A DNA stretch of 64,000 nt from Salegentibacter sp. (GTDB taxonomy: Bacteria > Bacteroidota > Bacteroidia > Flavobacteriales > Flavobacteriaceae): assembly GCA_024635795.1 (NCBI GenBank), contig JAGXIH010000013.1, positions 157,566 to 221,565 on the forward strand. The letters are read 5' to 3'. Of this stretch, positions 14,828 through 64,000 are shown piece after piece. Below the pieces are notes generated by a model that did no database searches, had not been told where the DNA came from, and saw nothing but the letters and a program-made list of their open reading frames with translations. How positions within the stretch are numbered: the stretch's first letter is position 1; each line of letters opens with the position of its first letter. The position numbers were made by a program, and so were the translations under genes.

Positions 14828-15814
14828 TTAAGTGGAAAGGATATCGGAGATTCTTAGCAATTCTTTATTAATAGTTGGCTTGTCTTTTAAGGCCTTATCC
14901 AGATCGCAGGCTTCAATTCGGTTATTCATCATCCCCACCATTACATTATGCTGACCGTCCAGAAGTAATTCCACCGCTTTTACACACATCCTACTGGCCA
15001 AAACCCTGTCAAAGCAGGTGGGACTACCCCCACGTTGAATATGCCCTAATACGGTTACTTTAGCATCATAGTACGGAAGGTTTTCCTTTACATATTCTGC
15101 AAGTTCAAATACATTTTTTCCGATCTTGTCCCCTTCTGAAACTACCACGATACTGGAAGTCTTACCTGAGCGCCTACTTCTTTCGAGGGAATTTAATAAT
15201 CTATCGAGACCTAAATTCTCTTCAGGAATAAGGATTTCCTCTGCACCCGCTCCAATTCCACTGTTAAGAGCGATAAAACCGGCATCCCGGCCCATAACTT
15301 CCACAAAGAATAACCTATTATGAGAGCTAGCGGTATCTCTTATTTTGTCTATGGCCTCCACTACAGTATTCAAAGCAGTATCGTAGCCAATGGTATATTG
15401 AGTTCCAAAAATATCGTTATCTATCGTACCGGGCACTCCCAGTACCGGGATGCCATGTTCTTTGAAAAGCACCTGTCCACCTCTAAATGTCCCATCTCCA
15501 CCGATAAGAACCATTGCGTCTATACCAAGTTTTTTAATATTAGCTGCTGCTTTTGCCCTGCCTTCTTCAGTTAAAAATTCTTTGGAACGCGCAGATTGCA
15601 GAATAGTGCCCCCAAGTTGGATAATATTTCGCACACTACGCGCATTAAGTTCCAGATAATCATCCTCAATCATTCCCTGAAAGCCTCTTTTAAAACCAAA
15701 GCATTCTACATGATAATATGCGCAGGCCCGGGTTACAGCACGTATGGCAGCATTCATCCCGGGAGAATCTCCCCCGGAGGTCATTAATCCTATTCTTTTT
15801 ATTCTTGGTGGCAT
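14828..15814 (-). CDS. pfkA: ATP-dependent 6-phosphofructokinase
   Basis: 328 aa, the usual bacterial PfkA length. Motifs: MTSGGDSPGMNAAIR (ATP site), LIGGDGTFRGG, PGTIDNDIFGTQYT with the catalytic TIDND, and GHIQRGGSPTCFDRVLASR. The Gly in the GGDGT loop points to ATP rather than pyrophosphate as donor. Role: fructose-6-phosphate to fructose-1,6-bisphosphate. First gene of a two-gene operon with mgsA. Confidence 0.96.
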   Translation of the reverse strand: MPPRIKRIGLMTSGGDSPGMNAAIRAVTRACAYYHVECFGFKRGFQGMIEDDYLELNARSVRNIIQLGGTILQSARSKEFLTEEGRAKAAANIKKLGIDAMVLIGGDGTFRGGQVLFKEHGIPVLGVPGTIDNDIFGTQYTIGYDTALNTVVEAIDKIRDTASSHNRLFFVEVMGRDAGFIALNSGIGAGAEEILIPEENLGLDRLLNSLERSRRSGKTSSIVVVSEGDKIGKNVFELAEYVKENLPYYDAKVTVLGHIQRGGSPTCFDRVLASRMCVKAVELLLDGQHNVMVGMMNNRIEACDLDKALKDKPTINKELLRISDILST

Positions 15815-15958
15815 CTTCTTTTATTTAACATTATAAATCTACGAACAAAGGCTTAAATAGCCGCGCCTGCACAAAATTTAATTTATGGCCAACAAATGAA
15901 CAAATAGCAATCTTAAAATAAAAATGAATTTATTTCATCCGGTCAAATTCCTGCCAAT

Positions 15959-18900
15959 TTAATTGAAGCGTTCCTCCGGGAAGTTTATGTAATCTGGCGC
16001 GATAGATTTTGGCGATTTCTCCTGTCCTTCCTCTTCTTCAGATTTTATATTTTCCTTATTCAGAATTTTTCGTATCATTTCCTTAAAAGTATCAAAATCA
16101 ACTGAATAGGAAATTCCAATTCCCTGGGTGAAGCCAATCTCCTCTCCAATGAACTGGATATTGTTTTCACGATTAAAAACTTTTGCTCTCAGCGACCCGT
16201 CTTCATTCAGAAGAAAATCTATTTGAAGATCCCCCACAATTATCGACTCGGTAACACCTCCAATAGGAACCCCCACCTGTCCGTTTATAATTACCCGGTC
16301 ACTAATTTGTGTAGAAAGGGTTAGACCAAATCTATCTACTTTTTGCTGATCTGGAGTACGGTCGCCCTGAACATAGTTCACGCCCACCTGAAATTTCCCA
16401 TCCTCATCTGCAAAAATATCGTTTACTATACTTGAAGCTCTTTCTGCCAGGGTTCCTGTGATGGCATTTTGACGTAAGCCAAACTCACTATAAAAAGAGC
16501 CCTGGGTAACCAGGAATAGGGCCTGTAATTCCCTACTCGCCCTGTCATCCATACGGTATTCCAATTCTGAACGTACCACGGAGCTGGCGTTGGGAAATTC
16601 AATTTCAAAGGTAATATCGGGTTGAATAATCTCTCCCTGAAGATCTATGATCACTTCTACCGGTATTTTTCTGTTTATACTGGGGTTTTCAAGGAGTACC
16701 GCAGGGTTGGCATTAAGCTCGTAAATGGCACGAACATCAAGCTGAGCCCGGGCCGGATTACCATCCCAGTTAATACTTCCGCCAGATTCCACTTTAAAAA
16801 CTTTTTGAACTAAACCAGCATACTTAAAGTTGTAAACCCCTTCGTAGGCCACAAAATCACCCCACATATTGAATTTTCCATTGGTGTTGATTTCCAACAA
16901 AAGGTTCCCTGCACCGCGGCCGCGAAGCGTACTTCCGCTGGTTTGGTCTACCACAACTTCCACTTCAGCATCACTGGTGACATCAAGATCAAACACCATT
17001 TCCATACCTTTCACCTCCCTGGTGACGATTTTTTCGCCGGCCAATCGGGCTGCTTTTTCCTCAGGACTAAGGAAATAGATATAGGAATTATCTCCGGCCG
17101 ATTCGGTTTCATTTAAAGGAATTTTAAAAACAGTACCTCTTTCGGTGGCGGCATTTACTTCAATAACCAGTTCATCGGTAGGTCCTTTAATACTCGCTTC
17201 CCCACTAATAAAAGCTGTTCCATAGTACAGAGCATCTTCACTGGCGTCTGTATCAAGGACCAAAAGCCTGTCTGTAGTGACATCCAGATTAAGCATCCAT
17301 TCCCGGAAATTGCGATGTCTTATATAACCATCAAGAGTTCCGCGAGTACCATATTTAGTGTCCACTAATTCAATTTGATCAAAATTGAATTGTTGTTCGG
17401 TAAGGTTAATCGTGGCTTCATCCCTGAAATCAAAATCCACATTCAGATAAGGAATTCTAAGACCTGCATCTATAAGACTTAGTTGCCCTGAAAATTCGGG
17501 ATTCTTGTAATTCCCTGAAACCCCAGCGCTTCCTGAAGCGAAACCTCTAATATTACTGATAACTTCCCCTCCCAGCGGACTGAAAGCTGCCATATTTAGG
17601 CGATTAAGGTCCACATCGAGATCAATCCTGGGTTCCTGGCCACTTACATCAATATTTCCCAGGGCCGAAAGTGATTCGAACTCTTTTTTCCTAAGAGTTG
17701 CATTGACATTATAATTGGTAAGGTCTTCATTTCCTTCTACATCAATCACAAGGTTCCCCAGGAGGTTGTCATTCACATCCAGGGAATCAATGCGTAAAGA
17801 GGTATTCGGATAATAGGCGCCATCCTCCTGTAACAAGTCCAGTTTTCCGTTCAGGACACCTGCCAGTCGTAGGCTATCGATTTGCGGAGTGATCTTCCCG
17901 ATATCCACATCGTCAAATTCCATACTGAAATTTTTATAAGTTGAATCCCGAAGCACCCCGCTTAGTCTTATTTCCTCATTCTGATGGCTCATCACCAGAG
18001 AATCAATGGTGATGTTTTTAAAATTATTATCAAAGACTATTTTGTTGCTCTTATTCCGGTCTTCATTGATGTACCAAATATTTTCCCTGAAACGGATATC
18101 AGATCGCTGGATTCCCACCACCGATTTATTATTTTCGTTTATAGTATGGAAAAGGTTGATGTTAAATACATCGTCATTTTTCTTTCCTCCCTGGAATTCT
18201 GAGCGGATAAAAAGCGTGTCCCTTTGAGTTACATTAATAAAGCTGAATTCTGAAAAATTATAAAATTCAGTAGAAACGCTATCTGACTCAAAGTAGGTAT
18301 TATAAATGGGGTTGGTGTTATCTACCTGCAGGTTCACGTTTTCCAACATATTTCCGAAGAGATCTATCCTGGGCGATCTGAAGGTGATCTTGAATTCAGA
18401 TTCGTCTGATTCCACTCTACCGCGAATAAAAGTATTTGGGGCCAAGATTATTTTGGGGTAGAAAACCTCTATGATCTTGTTGTAAATATCAAAATCGAAT
18501 TCCATAAACTGGTTGCTCGTAATAGTTTCGGGCTCGTAGTTGGTATAAATACTTCCCAGGGAGTTTTTAAACAGGTCAACGATTTCATCTACCTGGAAGA
18601 TTCCCTCCACCTGCCCGCTTATCACATCGGGAGAATTAATTCCTATAGTCCTCACCTGTCCTTCAAAACTGGAAACTATACTGAAATCATCAAAATAATA
18701 AAGGTCATTTTGATTCTGGTACGAGGTATTAAGCAGCAGTATCTCCCCAAAGGCATTATCTATTGTGGTACCCTTCATATTCATAATTACATCTCCCTTA
18801 AAAATGGAAAGACTATCCCTGGTTACCAGGTTGAGTTTATTCAGGTTTGCATATCTTACCGCAGCCTCAAAATCATATACGTTTATTTCTTCCGAAAGGT

Positions 18901-62871: not shown

Positions 62872-62944
62872 AGAAATGCTTAATAATGCTCTTTAAAACT
62901 TAAATATAAAAAAATCTCCTGGTTTTCAATAGGATTCCACCTTG

Positions 62945-63073
62945 TTCCGGATTATCCCGTTAGGTTCCGACCGAAGGGAACAGCGCAGCACAATCCGCTA
63001 AGCTAGCGAGCCCGAAGTTTCGATTTGAGACAGGTTTGAGCATTGCTTTTCATAGGATACATTATTGTAGCAC
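62945..63073 (-). repeat. attC-like repeat A (3' end of cassette 2, degenerate distal end)
   Basis: On the minus strand it begins GTGCTACAA one base after the stop codon of the 161-aa gene, then TATCC ... GGGATA arms and an 88-bp core (62963-63050). That core is about 85% identical by eye to the core of repeat B (GGTTCC.ACCGAAGGGAACAG, then CGCAGCACAATCCGCT). The expected GTT-type right end is not found, so the site looks decayed. Confidence 0.55.
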
Positions 63074-63074
63074 G

Positions 63075-63560
63075 TTATTTATATTCATATTTATTCCGCC
63101 AAACATTTTCTCCTTTTAAAAACGTAAGCAGTATTTCAGTCATTTGGTCAACCGTTTCTAGTGGCTTTGCCATTAGTATATGGTCATCATCTGTCACAAA
63201 TCCAGATGCTAAACCGTCATCTCTTAAACTTCCACCCACGTCCAAAGCTTTATATCCATTACCATTTTCGTCTTCTAATTGCACAATGTGAAATTCATTC
63301 CAATTAATTGATTTCATAGTGCTTTTTATTATTTCCGCTGTCGCTTTTTCAGATATAGTTTTTGTGTTTTCTCCGTAGTCATAAGTGACAACAAGTTTTA
63401 AATCTCGTTTTTCTTGTCGGATTTCACTATTCGGTAATTCAGTCCTATTTTCAGCAATTTCGAGTGTGCTGGATTTCTGTTTTGTATTCCAAATAATCAA
63501 AATAATTATCCCGATTAAAGCTAAAACTCCTAAGATTATGTAGGTATTCATTCTTTTCAT
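63075..63560 (-). CDS. Single-TM protein of unknown function (cassette gene)
   Basis: 161 aa. N-terminal membrane helix (YIILGVLALIGIIILIIW), a polar linker and a small alpha/beta domain (DLKLVVTYDYGENTKTISEK, NWNEFHIVQLEDENGNGYKA). I do not recognise a family. It starts 28 bp inside a boundary TTGTAGCAC and ends directly at GTGCTACAA, its reverse complement, the cassette hallmark. The alternate start is Met4 (63551). Confidence 0.72.
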   Translation of the reverse strand: MKRMNTYIILGVLALIGIIILIIWNTKQKSSTLEIAENRTELPNSEIRQEKRDLKLVVTYDYGENTKTISEKATAEIIKSTMKSINWNEFHIVQLEDENGNGYKALDVGGSLRDDGLASGFVTDDDHILMAKPLETVDQMTEILLTFLKGENVWRNKYEYK

Positions 63561-63581
63561 TTGATTTTTTTTGATAATGTG

Positions 63582-63725
63582 CTACAACGTCCCGTATAAA
63601 AACAGAGCGGGCGAACTTGATTGTCCGCAGGTTCCAACCGAAGGGAACAGCGCAGCACAATCCGCTGAGCAAGCAAGCACAGATTTCGATTAAAGACAGG
63701 TTCAAGCATTGCTTTTATATGTTGT
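63582..63725 (-). repeat. attC-like repeat B, interrupted at its R'' core by a group II intron
   Basis: On the minus strand: ACAAC (63725-63721), ATAAAA paired with TTTTTAT, the shared core (63716-63630) and the right end GTTGTAGC (63588-63581). ACAAC pairs with GTTGT of the right end. The sequence on the other side of ACAAC is replaced by the intron that starts at 63726. Confidence 0.55.
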
Positions 63726-64000
63726 GTGTGCCCAGCATGGGCATCTCTTAATATATCGAAGATATATTATTAATCTAGAGGGTGCAAGTCCCTTATGGGC
63801 AGGGGTGACGCCCTGAACCATTAGTAAGCCGCAAGGTTGCCAACTGTGAAGTTGGGACTAAAGGAAGCGGGACTACAAACCCTGGTACTGACGAACAGGA
63901 ACCGGATATGAGGCTGCAAGGTTGGATGAGCAAGCACATCATTGTGATGTCCTAAACATTTCTTTCGAAATGAATACCGAAGTAGTAGATCCGGCAGGAA
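63726..64000 (+). mobile_element. Group II intron, 5' part (domain I onward), truncated by window edge
   Basis: Starts GTGTGCCCAGCATGGGC (a GUGYG-type 5' end) and contains GAGGGTGCAAGTCCC, GGGGTGACGCCCTGAACC, TAGTAAGCCGCAAGG and AGGAAGCGGGACTACAAACC, all familiar blocks of bacterial group II intron domain I. The reverse transcriptase/maturase ORF and the 3' end should lie right of base 64000. Insertion is immediately after TTGT in the + strand, the strand opposite to the cassette gene. Confidence 0.8.

Follow-up and report, generated by a model that had tools for sequence, protein, structure and literature searches.

A group IIC intron at an attC-like cassette site, and signs of a Bacteroidota lineage of such introns in an integron-like system

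The end of the analysed stretch of DNA (64,000 nucleotides; hereafter the window) very probably carries a group IIC intron belonging to a lineage spread across Bacteroidota, whose members would insert after the second base of an R''-type core (GT/T, the slash marking the junction), in the folded strand of attC-like sites. Judged from sequence, this is an independent IIC-attC-like lineage, which resides within an integron-like system that is not of the IntI type.

RESULTS AND DISCUSSION

Position and boundaries of the intron

The 5′ part of the group IIC intron (start GTGTGCCCAGCATGGGC; positions 63726–64000, + strand) is truncated by the contig end, the last base of the window being base 221565, and the last one, of contig C21 of the source genome (G000; 1.98 Mb, an estimated 62% complete). 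The intron 5′ end, GTGTGCCC, was found at position 63726, immediately 3′ of TTGT at 63722–63725, in agreement with the coordinates given in the preliminary description. Two further statements made there also proved accurate: the intron lies opposite to the cassette gene (intron on the + strand, cassette ORF on the − strand), and the pairing arms ACAAC and GTTGT of repeat B are present (63584–63588 and 63721–63725). The 5′ exon ends in GTTGT (63721–63725, + strand), the first half of a split R''-type core, with TTGT/ as the putative IBS1. NTGT precedes the junction in 52 of 53 related introns, and the form TTGT in 23 of the 53.

The Rfam family RF02001 (group-II-D1D4-3) matched positions 63840–64000 with 94.9 bits (gathering score, 32), and the match runs into the window end. 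Because the window stops at the contig end, the 3′ end was read in related introns and in further copies within the source genome. The boundaries, GTGTG...CGA[CT], agree with the group II consensus (GUGYG at the start, RAY at the end). In the single complete copy of the source genome (L007:16789-17446; 658 nt, without an ORF) RF02001 scored 89.8 bits. Matches to domains V/VI reached 33.5 and 39.3 bits, slightly below the gathering score of 40.

The hairpin preceding the intron

A covariance model (R1), trained on other intron-occupied sites, matched the window at 63575–63725, ending exactly before the first base of the intron. This match defines the whole attC-like element B on the intron-carrying + strand, which is the equivalent of the attC bottom strand. 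With 22.9 bits (E 0.025 over 208 kb), element B is a weak copy of the hairpin. Its 5′ arm (63579–63609, + strand) consists of the core GTGCTACAAC(G) at 63579–63589, a 6-nt spacer and the L-box half TATAAAA (63595–63601), and its 3′ arm (63706–63725, + strand; GCATTGCTTTTATATGTTGT) contains the L-box half TTTTATA (63713–63719); the two halves constitute the second arm pair of the element.

At the sites of the clade, the final 26 bases of the 5′ exon form pairs with a distal arm that mostly lies 113–116 or 170–178 nt further upstream, and the score of this pairing was 23.8, versus 15.0 ± 3.0 when the arms were exchanged. In an alignment of 17 sites, 11 of the 16 pairs of the stem showed changes on both sides with pairing retained, and two G.U pairs were conserved (in 13 and 15 of the 17 sequences). 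Since these wobbles can pair on one strand only, the structure of the site belongs to the single intron strand, as is the case for the bottom strand of attC. For the window site, chance is excluded by its family, that is by 5′ exons ending in TGT (49 of 51 loci), by the distal-arm pairing and by the covariation of the stem.

The site combines features of two kinds: (i) those of attC, namely an imperfect inverted repeat with R and L boxes and a structure kept on the bottom strand, and (ii) those expected for class C introns, namely a hairpin replacing IBS2 and short putative IBS1 and IBS3.

Cassettes and their core mates

Upstream of element B lies repeat A (62940–63074, + strand), which has a degenerate left arm, a 3′ arm at 63040–63074 and an unoccupied core, ATTGTAGCACG, at 63064–63074. 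Between the cores of repeat A (TTGTAGCAC) and repeat B (GTGCTACAA) we located a mobile gene cassette (63065–63588, − strand) with an ORF of 161 aa (63075–63560, − strand, opposite to the intron strand) that belongs to no Pfam family. The cores of the two repeats, ATTGTAGCAC and GTTGTAGCAC, agree in 9 of 10 positions when compared by eye. The cassette recurs in three other genera (G019, G050 and G016) with 77–86% identity and with different flanks; in G019 the similarity stops at the cores, in the other two close to them. This cassette core is unoccupied in the window, in G019 and in G016, and in G050 it is split by an intron of the same family as the window copy (/TGTAGCACGTTATTTATATTC). A Fic-gene cassette provides a second pair of this kind, being occupied on contig C17 of the source genome (GT/TGCACCCAG) and empty in G044 (GT/TGTGCCCAG).

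In an integron array the opening core of a cassette and its closing R'' core are mates, and no match is required between both cores of a single site. The right core of every site was set against three kinds of left core: that of the following site, that of the site itself, and those of unrelated loci. Matches at 9–10 of 10 nt were found with the next site in 25 of 39 cases, versus 1 of 39 with the own site and 1.9% with unrelated loci. At the level of sequence, this core-mate pattern is a signature of integron-type cassettes. We infer a crossover at G/TT, in which the start core and the cassette's own R'' would act as mates, as they do in attC.

The preliminary description had placed the intron precisely within such a core. 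This is borne out by the 3′ exons of related introns and of other copies in the source genome: when the intron is removed, occupied sites restore GT/TNNNNNNN, and the joined core, GTTNNNNNNN, matches the opening core of the same cassette at 9–10 of 10 nt in 8 of 11 sites. On contig C13 of the source genome the 3′ exon likewise restores a matching core. Restoration failed at position 2804 of L096, where a second group II intron lies at the 3′ junction. In the case of the complete copy L007, the 3′ exon agrees with the next detected core at only 6 of 10 nt, and the 3′ exon on contig C23 had no core mate in the stretch examined. The cores fit GTTR in 37 of 43 cases and GTTRRRY in 5 of 43.

Several cores share GCCTGTTGCACAA directly after TGT or GT (L095:3307, 10495, 13632 and 14224, and L057), and CGGCCGAAGGCAATTCGCCAC precedes several left cores (the left flanks of 8080, 11704, 13495 and 14901 in L095). 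These sequences possibly represent another family of mobile ends, or a cassette type, that uses the same core.

Array recombinases and the host system

At its 5′ end, the array on contig C13 carries a gene for a tyrosine recombinase of 389 aa. Close homologues of this protein were found on the 5′ side of arrays, at a distance of 0.8–5.1 kb, in 9 of 9 full-length cases with sequence there (the source genome included), a count that leaves out two homologues at contig ends. The chance of such a placement is 0.5–2.3% per case, and the Xer paralogues lie far from the arrays. A 140-aa recombinase fragment in G080 is not close to any site.

The array recombinases scored best with NF040815 (XerA-like) and remained below the IntI cut-off. 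Of the IntI-specific additional region, a domain regarded as defining for IntI (PMC9668308), about 40 residues are missing in these proteins. Nothing above the cut-off of TIGR02249 was detected in 149 genomes; the model alone is uninformative, as every tyrosine recombinase scores with it.

The host system thus fails two strict definitions of an integron, yet in its sequence it behaves as one. Because the recombinase lacks the IntI domain and few cores are GTTRRRY, we refer to the sites as attC-like and to the system as integron-like. Accordingly, the attC reading of the preliminary description holds for the attC-like hairpin and the core mates, and does not hold for textbook attC, given the GTTRRRY count and the absence of the IntI domain from the recombinase. 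Like integrons with IntI and attC, and like CALINs, the Bacteroidota arrays consist of tandem one-gene cassettes in one orientation, with a folded-strand site bearing R and L boxes; further shared features are the signature of core exchange and the placement of a tyrosine recombinase 5′ of the cassettes. They differ from these systems in the recombinase described above and in the core, which is GTTRNNN rather than GTTRRRY, with complementarity of up to 10 nt.

Could the palindromes be replicated REP-like repeats, used by chance and having no role as recombination sites? The many sites per genome, their conserved interior sequence, the scarcity of GTTRRRY cores and the failure to find an IntI above the cut-off would all fit such an origin. 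We nevertheless hold it to be very unlikely, since copying of whole repeats is not expected to produce cores that pair across the cassette (25 of 39) and hardly ever within the repeat (1 of 39). Moreover, cassettes recur between cores with unrelated flanks, and an Xer-like recombinase lies at the 5′ end of nine arrays.

Three observations concern individual arrays. The array-side recombinase of L094 (6776-7945) has approximately 90 additional N-terminal residues before the SAM-like domain, which are absent from the 272-aa version in L095. In L095 (G001) a reverse transcriptase of 345 aa, with a YADD motif and a retron-like appearance, is encoded at 15048-16085, where it separates the array recombinase from the first cassette site. 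G071 carries 34 attC-like sites in a CALIN-like arrangement (G071:C1:1459070-1493562); no close homologue of the array recombinase was found in this genome, the best match (2e-26) being Xer-like.

Maturases of the related introns

The maturases of the related introns consist of RVT_1 and GIIM only, without an endonuclease domain. Their nearest solved structure is the GsI-IIC reverse transcriptase (316 bits, versus 119 for LtrA), and this similarity to PDB entries, together with a tree that has only three non-C outgroups and a weak root, places them in class C. From a scan of 84,980 species genomes the best 80 loci were retained; in the tree, 51 maturases of the Bacteroidota type form one clade (SH-aLRT 100). 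The clade is essentially confined to Bacteroidota, as two members come from metagenome-assembled genomes labelled Actinomycetota and Cyanobacteriota, on short contigs that may reflect binning errors. The suggestion that Bacteroidota possess a lineage of attC-targeting introns of their own was thereby upheld.

Introns of the S.ma.I2 type served as the IIC-attC set for comparison (plasmid copies beside intI1 cassettes, Klebsiella arr-2, Salmonella aadA6 and Serratia aadB). The resemblance noted earlier to the placement of these introns was confirmed: the junction occupies the same core position as in L108 and L109. The two groups share a class C maturase, insertion at TTGT/T of the R'' core on the bottom strand of attC, and an orientation antisense to the cassette genes. 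The identical insertion point and orientation would be expected had the known proteobacterial IIC-attC lineage moved into Bacteroidota. Such a transfer is quite improbable, since the maturases of the two groups are only about 35% identical, and the Bacteroidota maturases are equally far (36–37%) from those of terminator-inserting class C introns. A single clade uniting the Bacteroidota and IIC-attC maturases was also rejected (AU p=0.012, in a quick tree with groups set after the sites had been viewed). The IIC-attC maturases are placed with Bacillus and proteobacterial terminator introns, and those of Bacteroidota fall outside their lineage. The host sites differ as well: those of Bacteroidota are longer (the left arm usually lies about 113 or 175 nt upstream), their cores are rarely GTTRRRY, and the IBS1 is NTGT, versus mostly TTGT in IIC-attC introns.

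The second set comprised terminator-inserting introns of the O.i., B.h.I1 and GsI-IIC type from Bacillus, Clostridium, Hallella and Chitinophagales. Like these introns, the Bacteroidota lineage is of class C, lacks the endonuclease domain and has an upstream hairpin, a short IBS1 and a T at position +1. According to another reading, the window intron would be an ordinary class C intron that accepts any hairpin, its attC-like context being incidental because such repeats are common. Sister class C introns, some of them in Bacteroidota, do sit behind terminator hairpins, and IIC introns in general require only a hairpin and a short IBS1 (PMC7923331, PMC4424553). The sites themselves make this reading extremely unlikely. 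Among the 51 clade loci with a usable 5′ exon, this exon ends in TGT in 49, versus 1 of 25 class C introns from outside the clade; the latter lie behind terminators, and their 5′ exons mostly end in TTTA or similar. In the Bacteroidota clade the hairpin is mostly formed with the distal arm and there is no T-run terminator, whereas the terminator-inserting introns follow a compact hairpin with a T-run (median of −18.9 kcal/mol for the last 40 nt, versus −5.1 in the clade). In addition, the position of the junction within the core is constant, and 8 of the 11 checkable 3′ exons continue the core.

We infer two origins of attC targeting by group IIC introns from a tree with few outgroups and a weak root. 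In the open-access literature we found no description of group II introns in attC sites of Bacteroidota.

Proposed mode of insertion

Class C introns lacking an endonuclease insert behind hairpins and use replication strands as primers (PMC4424553); for IIC-attC introns the insertion site is TTGT/T in R'' (PMC7923331). By analogy, the RNA of the Bacteroidota intron and a class C maturase would recognise the hairpin on the exposed strand together with NTGT/T (IBS1/IBS3), and the intron would reverse splice into this strand behind the hairpin. As the maturase is without an endonuclease, the inserted intron would be copied with the nascent replication strand as primer. The resulting intron would be antisense to the cassette gene and would interrupt the core in the DNA, so that exchange at this arm should be blocked; splicing would restore the core only in RNA.

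Targeting of cassette sites by group IIC introns may have two or more origins, and the folded site itself would then be an attractive target. The introns also offer a marker, readable from sequence, of cassette arrays in a phylum whose surveys yielded hardly any integrons; IntegronFinder 2.0 reported a single complete integron for Bacteroidetes, that of Salinibacter (PMC9024848). On balance, we favour the view that Bacteroidota harbour a widespread integron-like system missed by current attC and IntI models. It would have 10-nt GTTN7 core mates, single-strand hairpins with conserved G.T wobbles and XerA-like recombinases without the IntI domain as movers, and a class C intron lineage would have adapted to it convergently, its insertions marking the recombination core. 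It thereby becomes testable whether an integron can operate with recombinases that lack the additional domain of IntI.

Intron copies and adjoining elements

Matches to the intron were obtained in 39 of 149 genomes of the same family. In almost all of the fetched copies the 5′ exon is a right hairpin arm ending in NTGT/, and almost all 3′ exons start with T (a T at +1 in 49 of 52 related introns); a few members (L118, L140 and L149) have atypical exons.

Besides the window copy, the source genome contains two further intron 5′ ends and three 3′ ends, and the window copy is 89–96% identical to the others. A reverse transcriptase was not found in this genome, which, at 62% completeness, is weak evidence of absence. 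As the complete copy also lacks an ORF, the maturase is probably supplied in trans, from the missing part of the genome or from elsewhere.

The ends of contigs C21, C17, C23 and C13 all lie inside an attC-site intron. The near-identity of the intron copies accounts for these assembly breaks, and some of the cassette regions at the four ends probably adjoin one another in the genome; joining the 5′ and 3′ half-introns by the core signature was unsuccessful.

At two loci, L055 (3151-4501) and L056 (G125), which have different 5′ exons, the attC-site intron is joined precisely at its 3′ junction by a second group II intron (start GTGTGCTGTGAGG) with its own reverse transcriptase, and L070 may be similar. 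This second intron is a tandem or nested element that may home to the 3′ end of the IIC intron.
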